Assembly: GCF_907165195.1 (NCBI RefSeq)
Contig: NZ_OU015584.1
Coordinates: 2,986,978-3,050,977 of the forward strand
Length of the DNA stretch: 64,000 bases
Origin: Parvicella tangerina
Lineage (GTDB): Bacteria; Bacteroidota; Bacteroidia; Flavobacteriales_D; Parvicellaceae
Direction of reading: 5' to 3'
Below are positions 3,501 to 24,736 of the stretch, piece by piece. Position 1 is the first letter of the stretch. The number at the start of each line of letters is the position of its first letter. The translations under genes and the position numbers were made by a program. The notes beneath the pieces were generated by a model. That model was not told the DNA's origin, ran no database searches, and saw only the letters and a list, made by a program, of their open reading frames with translations.

Positions 3501-4904
3501 TGGGTGTAGCTGAATTGCCTTACCTTCAATAAGTTTAGGCTGGAAAGCCTGTATACCTAACCTGTGAAGCGTAGGAGCACGGTTCAACAGTACTGGATGT
3601 CCTTTCAATACATTCTCCAAGATATCCCAAACTACTGGCTCTTTCTTGTCAACAATCTTCTTAGCAGACTTCACTGTTTTCACGATACCTCTTTCGATCA
3701 TCTTTCTGATGATGAACGGTTTGTACAGCTCAGCCGCCATATCTTTTGGTAAACCACATTCATGTAATTTCAATGTTGGTCCAACAACAATTACCGAACG
3801 AGCAGAGTAATCCACACGTTTACCCAATAAGTTTTGACGGAAACGACCTTGCTTTCCTTTCAATGAATCAGAAAGTGATTTTAACGGTCTGTTTTTGTCC
3901 GTCTTAACAGCAGATGATTTTCTCGAGTTATCGAACAAAGAATCCACGGACTCTTGAAGCATACGCTTCTCGTTTCTCAAGATCACCTCTGGTGCTTTAA
4001 TTTCAATCAATCTCTTCAGACGGTTGTTTCTAATGATAACTCTTCTGTAAAGGTCATTCAAATCAGAAGTAGCAAATCTACCACCGTCTAATGGAACTAA
4101 TGGACGTAAGTCTGGAGGAATAACTGGAACAACTCTCACGATCATCCACTCTGGTCTGTTCTCAATCGTATCCTGAGCATCTCTAAAAGCTTCAATTACT
4201 TGAAGTCTCTTTAACGCCTCATTCTTTCTTTGTTGAGAAGTCTCTGTGTTTGCTTTATGTCTTAGAGCAAATGACTCTCCATCCAAGTCAATATTCTTCA
4301 ACGCATCATAGAGCGCTTCAGCTCCCATTTTTGCGATGAACTTGTTAGGATCTGAATCCTCTAAATACTGATTTTCTTTCGGAAGCGTATCCAAGATATC
4401 AAGGTACTCTTCCTCCGTTAAGAAATCAAACTTAGCTAGTTCTTCCCCATCCTCTTTTTTAGCAATACCCGGCTGAATTACCAAGTATCTTTCGTAATAG
4501 ATAATCTGGTCTAATTTCTTAGAAGGTAAACCTAATAAGTAACCAATTTTATTAGGTAACGATCTGAAATACCAAATGTGAGCAACGGGAACCACCAAGT
4601 TAATGTGTCCCATTCTTTCTCTACGAACCTTCTTCTCAGTAACCTCAACACCACATCTATCACATACGATACCTTTGTATCGAATTCTTTTATATTTTCC
4701 ACAGTGACACTCATAATCCTTTACAGGACCGAAAATTCTTTCACAGAATAGACCGTCTCTCTCAGGTTTATAAGTTCTGTAGTTAATAGTTTCAGGCTTT
4801 AACACCTCACCATTTGATCTAGACAAAATCTGCTCAGGCGAAGCCAAGCTAATGATGATTCTATTGAAACTACTGTCAACTTTTGATTCTTTTCTGAAAG
4901 CCAT
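600..4904 (-). CDS. rpoC: DNA-directed RNA polymerase subunit beta'
   Basis: The 1434-residue protein is full length for Bacteroidota RpoC. The N-terminal zinc site is present (C66, C68, C81, C84), as is the catalytic Mg2+ loop [10 protein letters not shown] at about residues 475-484 with its three aspartates. A second zinc site occurs in the [13 protein letters not shown] segment. Beta' forms the catalytic centre with beta and clamps template DNA. It follows rpoB by 53 bp, which contain a hairpin but no separate promoter that I could recognise, so the two are co-transcribed. The ATG start is at 4902-4904. Nothing in the catalytic motifs looks unusual. Confidence 0.98.
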
Positions 4905-4957: not shown

Positions 4958-7900
4958 TTATTTATCTAATGTAATGTTAAGTCCTAAACCACTCAATTCG
5001 TTCAACAATACGTTGAAGGATTCTGGAATTCCAGGTGTTGGTAAATTCTTACCTTTCACAATCGATTCGTATGTTTTCGCTCTACCGATAACATCATCCG
5101 ATTTAACCGTTAGAATTTCCTGAAGGATATTAGATGCTCCAAATGCTTCAAGCGCCCAAACCTCCATTTCACCAAAACGCTGACCACCAAACTGAGCCTT
5201 ACCACCAAGTGGTTGTTGTGTAATCAACGAGTAAGGACCAATAGAACGAGCATGCATTTTGTCATCCACCATGTGGCTTAGTTTAATCATATAAATGATA
5301 CCCACTGTAGCCGGTTGATCGAATCTTTCACCTGTTCCTCCATCATAGAGATATGTTCTACCATATCTAGGCACACCTGCTTCATCTGTATACTTGTTGA
5401 TCTCATCCATCGATGCTCCATCAAAGATTGGAGTAGCGAACTTCTTACCAAGTTTCTCTCCAGCCCATCCAAGCACCGTTTCATAGATCTGACCAAGGTT
5501 CATACGAGATGGTACACCAAGTGGGTTAAGAACGATATCCACTGGTGTTCCGTCTTCAAGGAAAGGCATATCCTCTTTACGAACAATTCTCGCAATGATA
5601 CCCTTGTTTCCGTGACGTCCTGCCATCTTATCTCCCACTTTCAGTTTACGCTTTTTCGCCAAATAAACTTTAGCCAATTGCATAATACCATTTGGTAACT
5701 CATCACCCACAGAAATCTGGAACTTCTTACGCTTAAAGCTTCCCATTACATCAGTAGCTTTAAGGTTGTAGTTGTGAAGAGTTGTTTCAATCATCTCGTT
5801 CACTTTATCGTCAGTCGTCCAGTTCTTAGGGTTAATGTGCAAGAACTCGATATCTTTAAGTGTCTTCTCAGTGAATTTCACACCTTTTTTGATCACTTCC
5901 TCTTTGAAGTTATTGAATACACCTTGACATTTCTTGTCCCCAATTATTTTCAAAAGTTTCTCGATCAACACACCTTTCAGTGAAGCCAACTCCTTGTCCA
6001 TTTCAGCATCAATTTGCTCTAGCAATGGTTTATCAGCAGCCTTCGACTTTCTGTCTTTAATCGCTTTTGAGAATAATTTCTTGTTAATAACAACTCCGCT
6101 TGTCGATGGAGATACTTTCAATGAAGCATCTTTCACATCTCCAGCCTTGTCACCAAAGATTGCTCTAAGAAGCTTTTCTTCTGGTGAAGGATCGCTCTCA
6201 CCTTTCGGAGTGATCTTACCTATCAAGATATCTCCAGGTCTAACTTCTGCACCGATCCTGATGATACCGTTCTCATCCAAGTCTTTCGTTGCATCCTCAC
6301 TTACGTTTGGAATATCAGAAGTTAATTCCTCAAGACCTCTTTTTGTATCCCTAACCTCTAGTGAGTACTCATCGATGTGAATTGACGTAAACACGTCTTC
6401 ACTAACTACTCTTTCAGAAATTACGATCGCATCCTCAAAGTTATAACCTTTCCAAGGCATGAAGGCAACCTTCATATTTTGTCCAAGAGCCAATTCACCA
6501 TTTTGTGTTCCGTACCCCTCTACAAGCACATCTCCTTTCTTCACTTTCTGACCTTTCTTAACAATAGGCTTCAAGTTAATTGATGTACCCTGGTTAGTTT
6601 TTCTATACTTGATCAAGTTGTACACTTTCACTTCATCTTCAAACCTAACGATCTTCTCCTCTTCAGAAAGGTTATATCTTACGTGAATTTCCATCGAATC
6701 CACATAAACAATTTCCCCATCCAATTCAGCATGGATCAATACTCTTGAATCCTTAGCAATCAATTTTTCGATTCCAGTACCAACAATAGGAGAGTTTGGT
6801 CTCAATAATGGAACTGCCTGACGCTGCATGTTAGATCCCATCAGTGCACGGTTCGCATCATCATTCTCCAAGAATGGGATACAAGATGCCGCAATCGATG
6901 CAATCTGGTTAGCACCAACATCCATTAAATCAACTTCTTCTGGAGAGACGATTGGGAAGTCACCCACCAAACGAGAAATAACTCTATCGTTTACGAACTT
7001 ACCTTTATCATCAATCGCAGCTGTTGACTGAGCAATTCTCTTATCATCTTCCTCTTCAGCAGATAGGTAAATTGGTTGACCTTTAATATCTACTTTTCCT
7101 TTCTCAACATTTCTATATGGCGTCTCAATGAAACCAAGTCTATTAACTTTTGCATAAACACTCAAAGAAGAGATCAAACCAATGTTTGGTCCTTCAGGAG
7201 TTTCAATCGTACAAAGTCTTCCGTAGTGCGTGTAGTGAACATCACGAACCTCAAATCCTGCTCTTTCTCTGGAAAGACCTCCAGGTCCAAGTGCTGATAA
7301 TCTTCTCTTGTGAGTCACCTCAGAAAGTGGATTCGTTTGATCCATGAACTGAGATAGCTGGTTCGTTCCGAAGAAAGAGTTAATCACAGAAGACAGTGTC
7401 TTTGCATTGATCAGATCAATTGGAGTAAAGACTTCATTATCTCTAACGTTCATTCTTTCTCTAATTGTTCTTGCCATTCTTGCAAGACCTACACCAAATT
7501 GCGTGTGCAATTGCTCTCCAACCGTTCTTACACGTCTGTTTGACAGGTGATCAATATCATCCACATCTGTCTTAGAGTTAACTAACTCGATCAAGTACTT
7601 AACAATCGAAATAATATCATTCTTTGTTAATACTCTTTGGTCGTATGACTCTTCAAGTTTAAGTTTCTTGTTAATTCTATATCTACCCACCTCTCCGAGA
7701 TCATATCTCTGCTCCGAGAAGAATAATTTATCGATAACACCTCGTGCTGTATCCTCATCTGGCGGCTCCGCATTTCTTAACAAGCGGTAGATGAATTCAA
7801 CAGCTTCTTTTTCAGAGTTCGAAGTATCCTTCTGAAGTGTGTTGTAGATAATCGCAAAATCAGCTGAGTTAACATCTTCTTTATGAAGAATAATTTCTTT

Positions 7901-8773
7901 AACTCCTGATTCCAAGATCAGTTCCAAGTGCTCCTTCTCGATAACCGTTTCACGATCTATCAACACTTCATTTCTTTCAATAGATACTACTTCTCCAGTA
8001 TCTTCATCAACGAAATCTTCTACCCATGTTTTTAACACACGAGCAGCCAATTTACGTCCAACGGCTTTTTTGATTCCCGTTTTTGTCACCTTCATTTGAT
8101 CAGCAAGATCAAACAAGTCTAAAATATCTTTATCACTTTCGAAACCAATCGCTCTAAACAATGTGGTAACCGGAAGCTTTTTCTTTCTATCGATGTAAGC
8201 ATACATTACGCTATTGATATCCGTAGCGAACTCAATCCAAGAGCCTTTGAAAGGAATTACTCTTGCAGAGTATAGCTTTGTACCATTAGCGTGACGACTT
8301 TGACCAAAGAATACACCAGGCGATCTGTGTAACTGTGAAACGATTACTCGTTCTGCACCATTAATTACAAAAGAACCTCTTGGAGTCATGTACGGAATTG
8401 TACCTAAGTAAACTTCCTGTACAATGGTTTCAAAATCTTCGTGTTCAGGATCTGTACAGTAAAGCTTCAAAACAGCTTTTAACGGTACAGAGTAGGTTAA
8501 CCCTCTTTCAACACACTCATCAATGGTATATCTTGGTGGATCAACGAAATAATCAAGAAACTCCAGTACGAACTGGTTTCTTGTATCTGTTATGGGAAAG
8601 TTCTCAGAGAACACTTTAAACAGTCCCTCGTTTTGTCTATTTTCTGGAGTTGTTTCTAACTGAAAAAATTCCTGGAAAGACTTTAGTTGTATTTCCAGAA
8701 AATCTGGATAAGGGAAGCTATGCTTACTAGAAGCGAAGTTTACCCTTTCTGTTGAAATGTTAGTTGTTGCCAA
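4958..8773 (-). CDS. rpoB: DNA-directed RNA polymerase subunit beta
   Basis: The 1271-residue protein is full length. The rifampicin cluster I region ([20 protein letters not shown], about residues 471-490, then LSALGPGG) has the sensitive residues corresponding to E. coli D516, H526 and S531. Just downstream the near-universal CPIETPEG motif reads CTIETPEG: residue 522, equivalent to E. coli P560, is Thr (ACG codon at 7208-7210). The start codon is TTG (complement of 8771-8773). An in-frame stop lies seven codons upstream, there is no ATG between, and no Met occurs before the conserved [15 protein letters not shown] segment. A structured 168-bp leader separates it from rplL. It is co-transcribed with rpoC. 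Confidence 0.97.
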
Positions 8774-18711: not shown

Positions 18712-18753
18712 CATAAAAAAAAACCCTGACACTTCTTTTGAAGGTCAGGGTTT
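18712..18753 (-). terminator. Terminator after the large T9SS protease gene
   Basis: Stem AAACCCTGAC (18721-18730) with GTCAGGGTTT (18744-18753), extended by CTTC/GAAG around a TTTT loop, followed on the minus strand by nine T residues. It resembles the rpoC terminator (shared CCCTGAC/GTCAGGG core). Confidence 0.9.
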
Positions 18754-18772
18754 TAAAATTAAGCAGACTCGA

Positions 18773-21700
18773 TTATTTTGAAATCGTAATTCGTTTAGTA
18801 ATCGTTCCAGAGTTCGTGTTCACTTGTACAAAGTAAACTCCTCCGGCATGATCAGCTAAGTTAAATTCAACAAGCGTACTCGAGACATTTCCTAAATTTC
18901 TCGACTCAACCAATTGACCGATTGCACTGAACAACTTCACGTCAACCTCTTGCTCGATTCCAAAATCCAACTTCAAGTTAAATTGACCATCATTTGGATT
19001 TGGGTACAATGATACTCCACTTTCAAGAGAAGCTTGATCTATACCTGAAGTACCCACAAGAATAGTGATCTGATCAGTTTCTGTACAGTTTCCAATCGTA
19101 CCAGTCAATGTTACCGTATAAGTACCAGCAACGTTATACGTGTGAGACACAAATCCTTGAGTTGAAGACTGTCCGTCTCCGAAGTCCCACGAATAAGATG
19201 TCGCACTCGAACCAGCATTATCAAAATTAACCGTTCCGCCAACACCAATTGAAGTAACATCAGAATTCGCTACAACAGTTGGAGATGGATCAACACCTAC
19301 AGTCACCTGAACTGGTGTACCTGCACATGAACCATTCTGTCCTATAACCGTATAGGTAGTCTGTGATGTTGGACTAACCGTAATCGTAGGCGTAGTTGCA
19401 CCAGTATTCCATACATAAGATTGAGCTCCTGTTGCCGTAAGCGACTCCGAATTACCAGCACATATAGTTGAGTTATTCGGTATAACGGTTACCGTAGGCT
19501 CAGTTTCAACTGTAATCGTTACAGAAGCAGTTTCTGTACAAGAAGAAGCATCAGTAGCCTGAACTGTATAAACTGTAGTCACCGTAGGGGACACCGTATG
19601 GGATGCTCCTGTTGGTAAACCTTGGTCCCAAGTATATGAAGCCCCTGTTCCTGCACCACTTGCACTTATATTCACAGAGTTTCCTTCACAGATAGTTTGT
19701 CCAGACGCTGGGTTAACAATCAATGAGAATCCACCCGAATTGGTTACAGTTGCACTAGTAGATGTAGTACATCCAGCACCATCCTGAACTACTATTGCGT
19801 AAGTACCAGCAGCTAATCCAGGGAAGACAGAAGAAGTCTGATAAGTTGCTCCACCATCGTTACTATACTGAAGCGAACCAGTACCTCCAGTTGCATTTAC
19901 GATGATCTGTCCATTTGCATCCATACAAGTTTCATCTGATATTGTTGGACTTGTAATCGCTGGACCTGCTCCACCTCCTACGTTTTCTGTAGACGCAGTC
20001 GAAACACATCCGTTTGCATCGATAGCCTCAACCGTGTATGAACCTGCTGCCAAACCAGTAAATGTACCAGAAGCTTGAGCAGTTCCTGAGTTTAAGCTAT
20101 ACGTATACGGACCAGAACCTCCTGTAGCAGTTACCGTAATCGAACCGTTACTATTTCCACATGTAGCATCACTAACACTTGCTGTATGAACAACAGCAGT
20201 TGGTTCACCAATCGTAACACTTGCGGTTCCCTGACATGATCCTGCATCATTCACATAAATCGTATATGAACCTGCTGCCAAACCAGTGAAAGTTGATGAA
20301 GCACCAAAATTAGTTCCGTCTATACTATAAGTATAAGAAGGTGTACCACCAGTTGCAGTAACAGTAGCAGTACCATCAGAAGACCCATTACAAGAAACGT
20401 CTGTTCCTGTTGCTGCCACTGCTGGCCCAGCACTATTTGAAAGTGTTACAGAAGTTGTAGCCTGACATCCATTTCCGTCTTCTACAACAATATCATAAGT
20501 ACCCACAGCTAAACCAGTGAAGGTACTACTAGCTCCAAAGCTACTTCCTCCATCATTTGAGTAAGTGTAGGAACCTGATCCCCCTCCAGCAGTTACAGCT
20601 ATCTGACCATCAGATGCTCCACATGAGGGATCTGTTGGCGTTGCTGAAACCGTAACTGAACCAGATGTAGCATTTAAAGTAACCGAAGTAGTACCTTGAC
20701 ACCCATTATTATCCTGAACCACAACACTGTAAGTTCCAGGAGCTAAAGAGGTAAAAGTACTTGTCGGCACGAAGTTAGAGCCACCGTCAGTTGAATAACT
20801 GTATGGTGTAGCACCACCTGATGCAACGATATCAATTTGCCCATCATTACCCGCACAAGACGGATCTGTTGGTGTTGCAGAAACCGTTAAAGTTCCTGAC
20901 CCAGCATTTACCGTGACGGTCTGCATCGATTGACAACCATTAGCATCTATAACCAAAATATCGTAAGACCCTTGTGACAATCCGGTGAATGTACCTGAAG
21001 GCTGTAAAGTTCCTCCATCAATACTATATTGATAAGGCGTAGCACCACCTGTTGCGTTAGCTGAGATGGAACCATCATTTCCAGCACAAGATGGATCTGT
21101 AGGCGTAGCCGTCAAAATTGGTCCGTCTGTTACCGTAACCTGTACACTATCAATGATTTGTCCTTCACAATCTCCATCGAGCACCAGGTAAGCAGTGTAA
21201 TTACCCGCTGTACCATAAGTAACCGTTGTGTTTTGTGTAGTTGCACTAGTAGGAGTACCTCCAGTAGTGTACCAATTGTACGCTGTAGCATTTGTTGCCG
21301 TAGCGGTAAAGTCAATTGGAGAACCTGTACAAGCTGTTGTTGTACTAGCTGAAGCTGAACCAGAAACTGGAGCGTCTGTTATGTGAGCTGTTACGTATAA
21401 CGAGAAGTTATTACCAGCCCCCCAAGCACTTTCCATATCAATCCATGTACCATCACTCCATTGTTCATAAGCAGAATTAAGTGGCGTAGAAACACTCACC
21501 ATTTTTGAGACAATACCTAAAGAATCTCCTGCTCCAAGGTTATTAAAGTCCAAGCCGATATAGAAATCATTTCCTCCTACATTCACAGGCGCATCAAAAG
21601 GTAAGAAAACTAGTCCTTGTCCTCCTGTTAAAACACTATTCAGATCAGACATTGCGAAAGACGCTTGATCTAAAATTGTACCAGGTAATCCTGTTCCATC

Positions 21701-23674
21701 ATCATCCCAAATTGTCAATTCAACTGTAGATCCATTACCTCCATCTTCAAGTCCATAAATATAGATATCAGATCCTGTAACGTGTGTTCCTGAATATCCA
21801 GAGTATTTCTCAGCTTTTGCAAGATCACCGTAACTATTTACTCCAGTAATGAATCCACCACCTGAAGCACCATAGATTGTTAATGTATTCGTATCAACGA
21901 TATTCAACAACGTATCACACCCAGCAAAAGCAGATGCCACAATAGTTTGCGTACAAGTACTAGAGCCGTTTGCATTTGTAACAGTCAATTCTACTTCATA
22001 CGTACCAGGGTTAGCGTAAGTCACTGCACCAGGGTTTTGAGAAGTTGAAGTTGCTGGCGATACACCTCCTTGAGAAGTATTATCAAAATTCCAAGACCAA
22101 GAAGTCGGGTTTCCAGAAGATCCATCAGAAAAAGTAACTGATCCACCAGCTGTTACCGAAGTAGGACTAGCATTGATGTTACAAGTTGGAGGGTTAGTAG
22201 CATTACACGGCTCATAAGCGCCATCTAATGTAGTAACACCTGAACCAATTGGATCTAGCCAAGGCTCTAGTTGTGAGTTATTTGTAGTACCATTAGCCGT
22301 CCAGTTCATTGACATTTTACCATAAACATCAGTTGACGTTGGGCTCGAACAGAACGAACTACCTCCAGATAGTTGCCCTACAATTCTTCCCACATTATTA
22401 AATATTGGGGAACCTGAAGACCCTCCTTCCGTTACACCATGTCCATTCGCAGTAGCTGCCCATTGAACAATCCAGTGAGAATTTGCTGTACCTCCATTAA
22501 AGTTTCCATTTGCTCCGAGCGTACTTGTATAGGTAGAAATTTTCTTAGCTGATCCAGCAGGATGATGTATTCCTACTCCTGATGGCGAAGCTGTTGTCGT
22601 TCTATCCCACCCAGCATAAAATGCATTGTATGATGTTGGTGGCTGAGAATTCAGCTCCACTAAGTAAAAATCAGAACCTGCAACCTCATTCGTTCCAGGA
22701 GGCTGATTCAATGAGGTACCACTCCCAGAAGAAGCTACTACCGTACCTCCAGTCATTGTATCCGTTCCCTTAGAAGGGTCTGTACCGTTACTACCTGGTG
22801 AACAAGTCGTCTTCTGATAATTCCAATACCACACCCAAGAGCTAATATCTGCACCAGCATTTGGTTCACCACAATGCCAAGCGGTCAAAATGTATGGCGT
22901 ACAATCCTCTGCCGTGTTGTTAATCATGGCAGCAGAACAAACTGCGTAACCGCCACCAGAAGGGAATACATAATGCACCACAGCGTCTCGCTGCTCTTCC
23001 CATCCCGTAATCTCTGAACAAGCCACGTCAACCTGACAGTTATCAGCTTTCTCTGTTAACCCGTTCGAGAGTGTGTTTGGATCTTCAAATGGCTTTACAA
23101 ATTCCTCTACACCTCTGTAGAAATACCCTACTTCTTTAATCTCTATGATCGGAGTTTGTGTCACACCAGCTGGAGCGTAATACTCAAGCGTAATCGTCTC
23201 TCCCTGAATCATTTGTGTAGCACGGATGGTATTCTCATAATTGTAGTCACTTGTAAATGCCCCAATAACGTGGTTTTCGTTTTCATTATAAATAAAAACC
23301 TTACCACCGTTAGGAATGAAAAAATTATGATAATACAGACCTAAAGCCTTAGCTCCAGGTATATTAATTCTTAATCTCCAAAGACTACCTCCATCCGGAG
23401 TTGTCTCCCAAGTTCCTGAATTAACAGCATTATAATTTACTGGATATTTTAATCCTACCCGGTAATTCTGTTTTGAAACATCGTTTATTGCATCTGTCGC
23501 AGCGACCGTAACCATATCTGGCCCTGGAAGTTGCTTTAACTGAATCGCACTCTTTGGCTGGGTTGCGTTATTAAAGGTATAAGGTGTTCCACCTTTGCTC
23601 AACTGTGCAAATGCAGACGTACCTAATAAAACCCCCAAACCAATTGATAAGATTCTTTTGGTTATCTTTTTCAT
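18773..23674 (-). CDS. T9SS-secreted lysyl-endopeptidase-like protease with SprB repeats
   Basis: A 1633-residue secreted protein. Signal peptide 1-23 (ending SAFAQ). Residues about 210-480 form a chymotrypsin-like serine protease of the lysyl endopeptidase type, with H267 (TAWHC), D335 (AGSDFYLVEL) and S420 (GSSGSP). A PKD domain follows at about 498-582. A beta-sandwich region lies at about 590-850, then six tandem SprB-type repeats (about 850-1316), Ig-like/PKD modules (about 1317-1540), and a type A T9SS C-terminal sorting domain (1553-1633; VSLYPNPNDGQF, then GGVYFVQV). It should be exported by Sec, moved out by T9SS and anchored or released at the surface. It follows a small secreted protein by 11 bp and ends at a strong terminator. 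Cleavage after lysine is known for the family; specificity here is inferred. Confidence 0.92.
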   Translation of the reverse strand: MKKITKRILSIGLGVLLGTSAFAQLSKGGTPYTFNNATQPKSAIQLKQLPGPDMVTVAATDAINDVSKQNYRVGLKYPVNYNAVNSGTWETTPDGGSLWRLRINIPGAKALGLYYHNFFIPNGGKVFIYNENENHVIGAFTSDYNYENTIRATQMIQGETITLEYYAPAGVTQTPIIEIKEVGYFYRGVEEFVKPFEDPNTLSNGLTEKADNCQVDVACSEITGWEEQRDAVVHYVFPSGGGYAVCSAAMINNTAEDCTPYILTAWHCGEPNAGADISSWVWYWNYQKTTCSPGSNGTDPSKGTDTMTGGTVVASSGSGTSLNQPPGTNEVAGSDFYLVELNSQPPTSYNAFYAGWDRTTTASPSGVGIHHPAGSAKKISTYTSTLGANGNFNGGTANSHWIVQWAATANGHGVTEGGSSGSPIFNNVGRIVGQLSGGSSFCSSPTSTDVYGKMSMNWTANGTTNNSQLEPWLDPIGSGVTTLDGAYEPCNATNPPTCNINASPTSVTAGGSVTFSDGSSGNPTSWSWNFDNTSQGGVSPATSTSQNPGAVTYANPGTYEVELTVTNANGSSTCTQTIVASAFAGCDTLLNIVDTNTLTIYGASGGGFITGVNSYGDLAKAEKYSGYSGTHVTGSDIYIYGLEDGGNGSTVELTIWDDDGTGLPGTILDQASFAMSDLNSVLTGGQGLVFLPFDAPVNVGGNDFYIGLDFNNLGAGDSLGIVSKMVSVSTPLNSAYEQWSDGTWIDMESAWGAGNNFSLYVTAHITDAPVSGSASASTTTACTGSPIDFTATATNATAYNWYTTGGTPTSATTQNTTVTYGTAGNYTAYLVLDGDCEGQIIDSVQVTVTDGPILTATPTDPSCAGNDGSISANATGGATPYQYSIDGGTLQPSGTFTGLSQGSYDILVIDANGCQSMQTVTVNAGSGTLTVSATPTDPSCAGNDGQIDIVASGGATPYSYSTDGGSNFVPTSTFTSLAPGTYSVVVQDNNGCQGTTSVTLNATSGSVTVSATPTDPSCGASDGQIAVTAGGGSGSYTYSNDGGSSFGASSTFTGLAVGTYDIVVEDGNGCQATTSVTLSNSAGPAVAATGTDVSCNGSSDGTATVTATGGTPSYTYSIDGTNFGASSTFTGLAAGSYTIYVNDAGSCQGTASVTIGEPTAVVHTASVSDATCGNSNGSITVTATGGSGPYTYSLNSGTAQASGTFTGLAAGSYTVEAIDANGCVSTASTENVGGGAGPAITSPTISDETCMDANGQIIVNATGGTGSLQYSNDGGATYQTSSVFPGLAAGTYAIVVQDGAGCTTSTSATVTNSGGFSLIVNPASGQTICEGNSVNISASGAGTGASYTWDQGLPTGASHTVSPTVTTVYTVQATDASSCTETASVTITVETEPTVTVIPNNSTICAGNSESLTATGAQSYVWNTGATTPTITVSPTSQTTYTVIGQNGSCAGTPVQVTVGVDPSPTVVANSDVTSIGVGGTVNFDNAGSSATSYSWDFGDGQSSTQGFVSHTYNVAGTYTVTLTGTIGNCTETDQITILVGTSGIDQASLESGVSLYPNPNDGQFNLKLDFGIEQEVDVKLFSAIGQLVESRNLGNVSSTLVEFNLADHAGGVYFVQVNTNSGTITKRITISK
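19729..21127 (-). repeat. Six tandem SprB-type repeats, about 77 codons each
   Basis: Each unit reads approximately: TPTDPSCAGNDG, then ATGGATPYQYSIDGG, then FTGLSQGSYDILVIDANGC. There are six successive units, at about residues 850, 928, 1006, 1084, 1160 and 1238. They are diverged but keep the Cys pair and the GG-Y-YS-DGG core. SprB repeats are named from the Flavobacterium gliding adhesin. Confidence 0.9.
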
Positions 23675-23685
23675 GGTTCTATTGA

Positions 23686-23937
23686 TTATTTCTGATTGGT
23701 TTTCTTTTCTTCGATAACAGCCTCTTCACTTTTATTAGGAAGCGCCTTAAGGTTTTTCATCCTTACAGATTTTACCTCTTTTTTTGCTGGTTTTTTATCT
23801 TTGATAATTACCGAGTTCTTTGTCTTTACCTGTTTTTCATTAGTCTCACTCACCTCAGTAGACTGTGCTACCGAAAACGATAAAGCCCCAACAAAAAGTA
23901 ACAGGGTTAGTGTAATTTTTTTCATAAGTTGTTTCAT
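23686..23937 (-). CDS. Small secreted lysine-rich protein
   Basis: An 83-residue protein with a clear signal peptide (KKITLTLLLFVGALSFSVAQ). The mature part of about 58 residues is very rich in Lys and Glu (KQVKTKNSVIIKDKKPAKK and similar) and has no Cys. An ATG four codons downstream of the first (23923-23925) is an equally good start. It lies 11 bp upstream of the giant protease and is almost certainly in its operon. I do not recognise a family. Possible roles include a chaperone-like partner, a decoy substrate or a cell-surface peptide; none is shown by sequence. Confidence 0.65.
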   Translation of the reverse strand: MKQLMKKITLTLLLFVGALSFSVAQSTEVSETNEKQVKTKNSVIIKDKKPAKKEVKSVRMKNLKALPNKSEEAVIEEKKTNQK

Positions 23938-24049: not shown

Positions 24050-24736
24050 ATGAACATTCTATTGGTTGAAGATGAAAGAGCACTCCATGAGGCTATTAAG
24101 CTCAATATGGAACTAGAAGGATTTAAAGTCATCTCAGCTTTTGACGGAACTGAAGCCATCGAAATTCACAAGAACACACGTATTGACCTGATTCTGCTGG
24201 ATGTAATGATGCCAAAGCTCAATGGGTTTGATGTTTGTGAAAAAATTCGGTTATCGGATCATAAGACCCCCATTCTTTTCTTAACTGCAAGAGGAGAATC
24301 TGAAGACAAGATCAAAGGCCTGACATTGGGGGCTGATGATTATATCACCAAACCCTTCAACACAAAGGAACTTGTTCTGCGAATTAAGAACATCCTCAAA
24401 AGAATCAATCCTGATCAAACCTCATCATGGAGTGAGTATAACATTGATGGACATCTCATTGACCTCAACTCCTACAGCGTAAAGAAAAGCGATAACACAA
24501 CAGTCCAACTCAGCGAGAAACAGGCAAAACTGCTCAAGTTACTTATTGATAACAAGGAGAATGTAGTCAGCAGAAAGGAAATCCTAGAGAAAATATGGGA
24601 ATATGAAAGAATCCCGAATACCCGAACAATTGACAATGTAATCCTTTCCTTTAGAAAAATCTTTGACTCCAAACAACACTCTCACTTTCAGTCAGTTAGA
24701 GGGGTGGGCTATAAATTCACTGAAAAAAAAGCCTAA
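24050..24736 (+). CDS. OmpR/PhoB-family response regulator
   Basis: The 228-residue protein has a receiver domain with the acidic pair E7-D8, phosphoacceptor D51 (LILLDVMMP), Thr in FLTARGE and Lys in TKPFN, followed by a winged-helix DNA-binding domain (about 130-225) ending RTIDNVILSFRKIF and VRGVGYKF. It is a phosphorylation-controlled transcription factor. No histidine kinase is adjacent; the only one in the window is 34 kb away, at 58879. It is monocistronic, with its own promoter and terminator. Confidence 0.93.
   Translation: MNILLVEDERALHEAIKLNMELEGFKVISAFDGTEAIEIHKNTRIDLILLDVMMPKLNGFDVCEKIRLSDHKTPILFLTARGESEDKIKGLTLGADDYITKPFNTKELVLRIKNILKRINPDQTSSWSEYNIDGHLIDLNSYSVKKSDNTTVQLSEKQAKLLKLLIDNKENVVSRKEILEKIWEYERIPNTRTIDNVILSFRKIFDSKQHSHFQSVRGVGYKFTEKKA

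Follow-up and report, generated by a model that had tools for sequence, protein, structure and literature searches.

Introduction

Gliding adhesins have been described as type B substrates that are linked to the tracks by carrier proteins (PMC10994853, in excerpt), and SprF-like proteins are named as the carriers of type B gliding adhesins in parts of three reports (PMC10994853, PMC12618676, PMC9143113). Regarding SprB, the gliding adhesin of Flavobacterium johnsoniae, a passage of PMC9143113 that cites earlier work states that sfGFP attached to the last 368 residues of this protein was propelled along the surface when SprF was co-expressed. Three orphan type B substrates are mentioned in F. 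johnsoniae, and RemA is given as an example of type A, in PMC12618676. A secreted enzyme, the fucoidanase Fhf1 of Formosa haliotis, has also been described as having an SprB repeat together with a T9SS signal of type A; its single predicted repeat is absent from the truncated construct Fhf1-delta-470 (PMC7698502, in part).

Secreted proteases may also be encoded next to small partners. In Bacteroides, C10 cysteine proteases and staphostatin-like inhibitors are described as operons in which the gene of a small exported protein lies within a few bases of that of a secreted protease (PMC3462683, in excerpt). The closest enzymes of solved structure to the protein described here are lysyl endopeptidases (4nsv, 4nsy), including Achromobacter protease I (API; 1arb).

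In the present study, we analyzed a stretch of 64,000 nucleotides from Parvicella tangerina (the window), in which an earlier note had described one 1633-residue protein with a lysyl-endopeptidase-like serine protease, PKD domains, six SprB repeats and a T9SS signal. This description was borne out by Pfam, NCBIfam and solved structures, and the architecture of an SprB-stalked, secreted lysyl-endopeptidase-like protease is real. The protein resembles Fhf1 in being a secreted enzyme with SprB repeats and a type A signal, and differs from it in that Fhf1 is a glycoside hydrolase with one repeat. We consider it likely that the locus encodes a T9SS-exported, API-type lysyl endopeptidase on a modular stalk, in a two-gene unit with a lysine-rich mini-protein.

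Domain organization and predicted export

The protease gene (3005750-3010651 of the 3.98 Mb genome, a single contig) is a single intact ORF with an ATG start and no internal stop. Its product begins with a signal peptide, a pro-region, the protease domain, a PKD domain, a jelly-roll domain, a second PKD/Ig-like stretch and the six SprB repeats, and ends with Ig-like stretches, a PKD domain and a type A T9SS signal. The pro-region, the jelly-roll, an Ig_7-like stretch and a small ORF upstream are additional to the parts previously noted.

18773-23674, minus strand: T9SS-exported lysyl-endopeptidase-like protease, 1633 aa (ORF and domain matches)
23606-23674, minus strand: signal peptide, residues 1-23 (judged by eye)
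23045-23605, minus strand: pro-region, residues 24-210 (between the signal and the protease match; relatives have a similar leader)
22217-23044, minus strand: protease domain, residues 211-486 (match to solved lysyl endopeptidases)
21938-22180, minus strand: first PKD domain, residues 499-579 (Pfam)
21368-21925, minus strand: jelly-roll domain, residues 584-769, with a fold like those of Cwp84 and a phage baseplate protein (structure model)
19739-21121, minus strand: array of six SprB repeats, residues 852-1312, without Lys or Arg (Pfam)
19496-19708, minus strand: Ig_7-like stretch, below the cut-off (Pfam)
19064-19282, minus strand: last PKD domain, residues 1465-1537 (Pfam)
18782-19009, minus strand: type A T9SS C-terminal signal, residues 1556-1631 (Pfam and NCBIfam)
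18712-18754, minus strand: terminator-like hairpin with a T run, directly 3' of the protease gene (seen by eye)

The protein scored 130 bits for SprB (PF13573; gathering cut-off 28, six stretches), 85.4 bits for PKD and 47.9 bits for Por_Secre_tail. The match to TIGR04183 (45.4 bits, cut-off 23), together with the N-terminal signal, identifies it as a type A T9SS cargo, and the type B C-terminal domain TIGR04131 had no match in the ORF. The hairpin is not among the sites given by the terminator scan, and the scan for promoters and terminators gave fewer sites than in shuffled sequences.

The protease would be exported through Sec and then through the T9SS, for which the type A signal suggests the PorV route, and may work outside the cell in an anchored or released form. 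The pro-region probably keeps the enzyme inactive until it is processed.

Catalytic domain

Residues 211-486 matched 4nsv at 2.8e-42, 4nsy at 3e-42 and API (1arb) at 1.1e-41. In the API numbering and with the residue roles that we assume here, which the aligned letters fit, the catalytic triad of API, His57, Asp113 and Ser194, corresponds to His267, Asp335 and Ser420 of the protease and API Asp225 corresponds to Asp449, while all six cysteine positions of API are also cysteine in the protease and the domain lengths are alike. The triad, the equivalent of Asp225 and the six cysteines were invariant in all 12 aligned domains. In contrast to API, the protease carries Phe392 at the position of Trp169 and Ser436 at that of His210, in addition to its long modular stalk and T9SS signal; the Trp169-His210 pair is not kept, and Ser occupies the His210 column in 12 of 12 domains. 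This pair is presumably a trait of API and may not define the whole family. Since these two residues near the active site differ, the lysine preference is a prediction: judging from the alignment, we expect the protease to prefer Lys, perhaps Lys and Arg, and to have a pH profile different from that of API, with an optimum predicted to lie nearer to neutral because of the Ser at the His210 position. The catalytic domain was also modelled, but with a poor result (mean pLDDT 49.1) that was set aside.

Relatives of the protease

The protease domain was matched (1e-10 or better) in 282 of the 299 genomes drawn from the order, and there is nothing unusual in the protease by itself. Most of the relatives in named records bear the label Flavobacteriales, Fluviicola among them. 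Two protease-domain matches at 0.001 were present in the source genome. The second lysyl-endopeptidase-like protein, G000:C1:2648185-2649894 (L065), has 772 aa and a domain 43% identical to that of the protease; its signal is of type A, Pfam gave no match to SprB in it, and its gene is not preceded by a lysine-rich ORF.

For the survey, the protease and the best 80 of 280 confirmed named loci were compared (81 rows). Using our own SprB profile, which gave seven matches in the protease versus six by Pfam, at least five SprB-like units were found in 11 of the 81 rows; eight of these were confirmed by Pfam, and the arrays in L069, L073 and L115 were seen by our own profile alone. Two matches each were obtained in L081, L086, L087, L101, L113, L125 and L129; because the three that were scanned with Pfam (L081, L086 and L087, also L054, L055 and L056) lacked SprB, only rows with five or more units were counted.

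On a tree of the 81 domains, the SprB-stalked rows fell into two distant parts, one being the group of the protease, which lies within a starred set of 32 rows, the other an Aureispira/Chitinophagales group. The SprB label needs four changes on this tree, with the direction of gain or loss being indistinguishable, and the branching order within the protease's own group is weakly supported. Two separate origins of the SprB stalk would be the simplest reading of the tree. The second group consists of Aureispira proteins (L115, L119 and L137) and one from a Chitinophagales MAG (L107), which belong to the same protease family; L107, L119 and L137 have 5 to 11 SprB stretches and Por_Secre_tail by Pfam, and L115 has its array by our own profile only. 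Unlike the protease, they lie in a separate part of the tree, and no lysine-rich ORF was found upstream of them by script. It had been considered in the earlier note that the architecture might prove to be common and characterized. The arrays in 11 of 81 rows and in two parts of the tree agree with the first point; on the second, nothing was recognized in the open-licence PubMed Central literature on a protease-SprB fusion or on its lysine-rich partner.

Two records deserve mention for other reasons. In L048/L069 (about 740-1460), from a MAG, the protease ORF is broken by an in-frame stop, which would represent a pseudogene or an assembly error. The protease of L080 (CP034120.1), in a record named Glaciecola amylolytica (Pseudomonadota), groups within Fluviicola, and the genome is probably misnamed.

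Pfam tables for 15 proteins (the protease, its paralogue and 13 relatives) contained SprB in five, namely, the protease, L047, L049, L051 and L052. The nearest SprB-less relatives, L054-L057, keep the protease, PKD, jelly-roll, Ig_7-like, PKD and signal parts, and L060-L062, which belong to another family, carry HYR modules instead of SprB. Since this protease occurs without SprB in close relatives, the stalk appears to be modular and the SprB array an interchangeable spacer.

The stalk

By the stalk of 1059 residues (PKD, jelly-roll, SprB and Ig-like parts), the enzyme would be kept at a distance from the cell and might be bound to a glycan or matrix target, with the jelly-roll being the likelier binder and the SprB repeats a spacer. 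The jelly-roll was modelled at a mean pLDDT of 78.5, and this model matched two proteins at the same Z of 13.1, namely, Cwp84 (3.2 A over 158 residues) and a phage baseplate protein (3.0 A over 149 residues). Cwp84 is a surface-layer-associated protease, the structure entry of which names a cysteine protease and a lectin-like domain; based on the title of the entry and the matched range, the match appears to fall in the lectin-like part. A Foldseek search with the jelly-roll returned two rows at an E value of 0.001 or less, both of which were phage baseplate proteins. The domain is common to relatives with and without SprB (ten sequences, six with and four without). The modelled fold suggests the jelly-roll, rather than the SprB repeats, as the likelier binding module; glycan binding is putative, a fold match alone being insufficient for its assignment.

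When cut by script, each of the six SprB units has 74 residues; the units are spaced 77-78 residues apart and are 37-65% identical to one another. Residues 487-1545 contain three Lys and no Arg in 1059 residues. Protection of the stalk from its own enzyme was considered as a reason and rejected: in five further SprB ORFs of this genome, the 13 fragments compared (L001-L015 minus two fragments of the protease ORF) contain 0-1.11% Lys, and the depletion is therefore not specific to the protease. In the Aureispira relatives L115, L119 and L137, the stalk contains 0.09-0.19% Lys versus 1.0-1.1% Arg, possibly a sign of selection against Lys in these proteins; the comparison with other SprB ORFs covered the source genome of the protease.

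SprB repeats and gliding

From the SprB repeats, it had previously been proposed that the protease may be held on moving surface tracks or target polysaccharide. According to this explanation, the repeats put the enzyme on moving tracks, and digestion is swept over the surface during gliding. The six repeats above the Pfam cut-off are consistent with this idea, and GldJ was found in the genome over its cut-off, which indicates that gliding-type machinery exists; GldJ is uninformative about the protease itself, and an argument for a gliding role from its presence alone was rejected. RemA, although of type A, is reportedly mobile, since the title of a cited paper refers to it as a mobile surface lectin, and a gliding role for a type A protein such as the protease is thus conceivable. 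However, the protease signal is type A and not type B, and no PorP/SprF gene was found beside it, the nearest of the 22 PorP_SprF matches in the genome being located at 2963708 and 3209477. The absence of such a neighbour is not decisive by itself because of the three orphan type B substrates in F. johnsoniae. Furthermore, movement of sfGFP required no more of SprB than its last 368 residues, together with SprF (PMC9143113, in excerpt), and close relatives of the protease lack SprB repeats. The protease shares these repeats with SprB, from which it differs in its type A signal, the lack of an adjoining SprF gene, its N-terminal enzyme and its array of only six repeats. We regard a gliding-associated protease as improbable; the SprB repeats give this reading no positive support, and the claim derived from them was not upheld. 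The SprB-stalked protease is a variant of an ordinary kind of secreted bacterial protease, for which the gliding inference is weak.

The distribution of the repeats in the genome points in the same direction. At least 136 SprB matches were present in at least 19 ORFs, both of which are lower bounds with 150 of 212 candidates scored; the count of type A signals was similarly made with 150 of 196 candidates scored. When the ORFs were paired with signal classes by position and frame length, with type B taken over its cut-off, 12 of the 19 found were type B, six (including the protease) were type A and one was neither. A PorP/SprF gene was located within about 1 kb of an end in seven of the 19, six of type B and one of type A. 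SprB repeats consequently accompany type A as well as type B signals here and are also part of an enzyme, and the name "SprB repeat" alone gives no ground for assuming motility. The type A exception, G000:C1:2348036-2350838, is an odd pairing because PorP/SprF carriers go with type B signals.

A lysine-rich mini-protein upstream

The protease appears to form a two-gene unit behind a mini-protein gene and faces a response regulator gene.

23686-23937, minus strand: small exported lysine-rich protein, 83 aa, the stop of which is 11 nt before the protease ATG
24050-24736, plus strand: OmpR-type response regulator, divergent from the mini-protein/protease pair (domain match)

After its presumed signal, the mini-protein has 58 residues, of which 15 are Lys and one is Arg, with no Cys and no aromatic residue. 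In the nine mature mini-proteins compared, 138 Lys and five Arg were counted, the Lys share ranged between 19 and 35%, Cys was present in none, and seven to eight of the nine lacked aromatic residues of the few types checked, one having a single one. The 32 other ORFs chosen from the window (15158 residues) contain 7.35% Lys and 3.93% Arg; the Lys excess of the mini-protein over these was marked (p 1.4e-5) and its Lys:Arg skew modest (p 0.010). Strong copies (1e-8, profile of nine) were found in 10 of 39 genomes of the family, one per genome and in three genera (g1, g2 and g6). All ten are directly upstream of the protease on the same strand at a gap of 11-44 nt, including the tenth (G084), which was outside the training set of the profile. 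G093 (g2) has no mini-protein, and its best protease match was only 2.8e-46. In the survey, the mini-protein was found by script in eight of 81 rows and additionally in L069, the protease ORF of which has a stop; L094, L101, L103 and L124 start inside the gene and are uninformative on this point. Among three close genomes, dN/dS was 0.24-0.34 for the mini-protein versus 0.07-0.09 for the protease (three non-independent pairs), which fits a translated but faster-evolving protein.

A small ORF on the same strand and closely spaced with a protease gene is the arrangement of genetically linked inhibitors of the staphostatin, Spi and Bfi/Bti kind, and inhibitor-protease operons in Bacteroides are a precedent (PMC3462683, in part); unlike the cysteine proteases and staphostatin-like partners described there, the partner here is lysine-rich, probably disordered and without known relatives in Pfam, NCBIfam or the PDB. 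The mini-protein may be a dedicated brake, a disordered lysine decoy or an inhibitor with which enzyme that becomes active too early would be engaged in the periplasm until its export. The constant position of the strong copies, the Lys excess of the mature peptides and the dN/dS values favor this explanation, which we put forward as a tentative one, short of being likely. Inhibition would be transient because a lysine-rich disordered chain should itself be digested, and this expectation counts against a brake, as do the lack of a known family or fold, the modest Lys:Arg skew and the absence of the mini-protein from most relatives of the protease. The narrower proposal, namely, a sacrificial lysine decoy that soaks up premature periplasmic protease and is consumed during export of the enzyme, is more doubtful; if true, it would represent a sacrificial-substrate brake matched to the specificity of the protease instead of a folded inhibitor. 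A lysine-rich exported partner of an apparently lysine-cutting enzyme looks new. Should the mini-protein control the protease, it would protect the cell from its own secreted enzyme in a simple way that is matched to the specificity of this enzyme, and it would be a candidate reagent for the control of LysC, a protease in wide use in proteomics.

Other exported lysine-rich ORFs and weak profile matches in the same genomes also argue against a dedicated brake. At a loose threshold of 0.1, the mini-protein profile matched something in 19 of 20 genomes, and most of the weak matches covered it only in part; the seven strong matches among these genomes (8e-19 or better) were all at the protease locus. 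Six weak places were fetched, three of which held short exported Lys- and Cys-rich ORFs beside a kinase/regulator pair and three other lipoprotein-like ORFs. We also examined 16 stretches totalling 210 kb, most of which were chosen for a weak match or for the locus itself. Of their 60 short ORFs, 27 had a signal-like start and 11 of these contained 18% or more Lys after the signal, eight at the protease and three Cys-rich, with the L049 copy being lost to an overlapping false ORF. Exported lysine-rich small proteins are therefore not unique to the protease locus, and within the 16 stretches the Cys-free type was found only there.

Regarding the response regulator, no kinase gene lies beside it in the window. 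According to a motif script, a divergent response regulator gene is present within 2 kb in 23 of the 81 surveyed rows (the protease's group, Fluviicola-like relatives and three others), eight of which also have the mini-protein. This arrangement is at most suggestive of shared control. Alternatively, the mini-protein may have nothing to do with proteolysis and may be a small envelope protein that belongs to the regulon of the response regulator and shares the promoter region by chance. Its absence from 15 of the 23 rows with a divergent regulator is in line with this view, as is the situation in G000, G063 and G081, where a kinase/regulator pair is divergent from a different exported Lys- and Cys-rich ORF, whereas chance sharing does not readily account for the pairing with the protease in all 10 genomes and three genera despite poor sequence conservation. 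A regulon protein of this type is a conceivable explanation, although not a likely one.

Searches with the nine mini-proteins gave nothing over the cut-off in Pfam or NCBIfam and no PDB match below E 0.065. The matches to DUF6520 (E 0.0032, below the cut-off, residues 1-39) and EF0750_LPXTG (E 0.00096, 19.6 bits, cut-off 47) were dismissed as signal or low-complexity matches. The Cys-rich ORFs in the protease's genus, at 4024-4251 (+) of L163, 3995-4249 (+) of L164 and 4236-4457 (-) of L165, are each divergent from a histidine kinase/response regulator pair. The position of the mini-protein directly upstream of the protease is occupied in genus g7 by a META-domain lipoprotein (L088-L091 by script). 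This lipoprotein was rejected as a relative of the mini-protein because it belongs to a different family (PF03724), which the one g7 copy scanned with Pfam, at 7563-7964 (-) of L059, matched with 64.6 bits.
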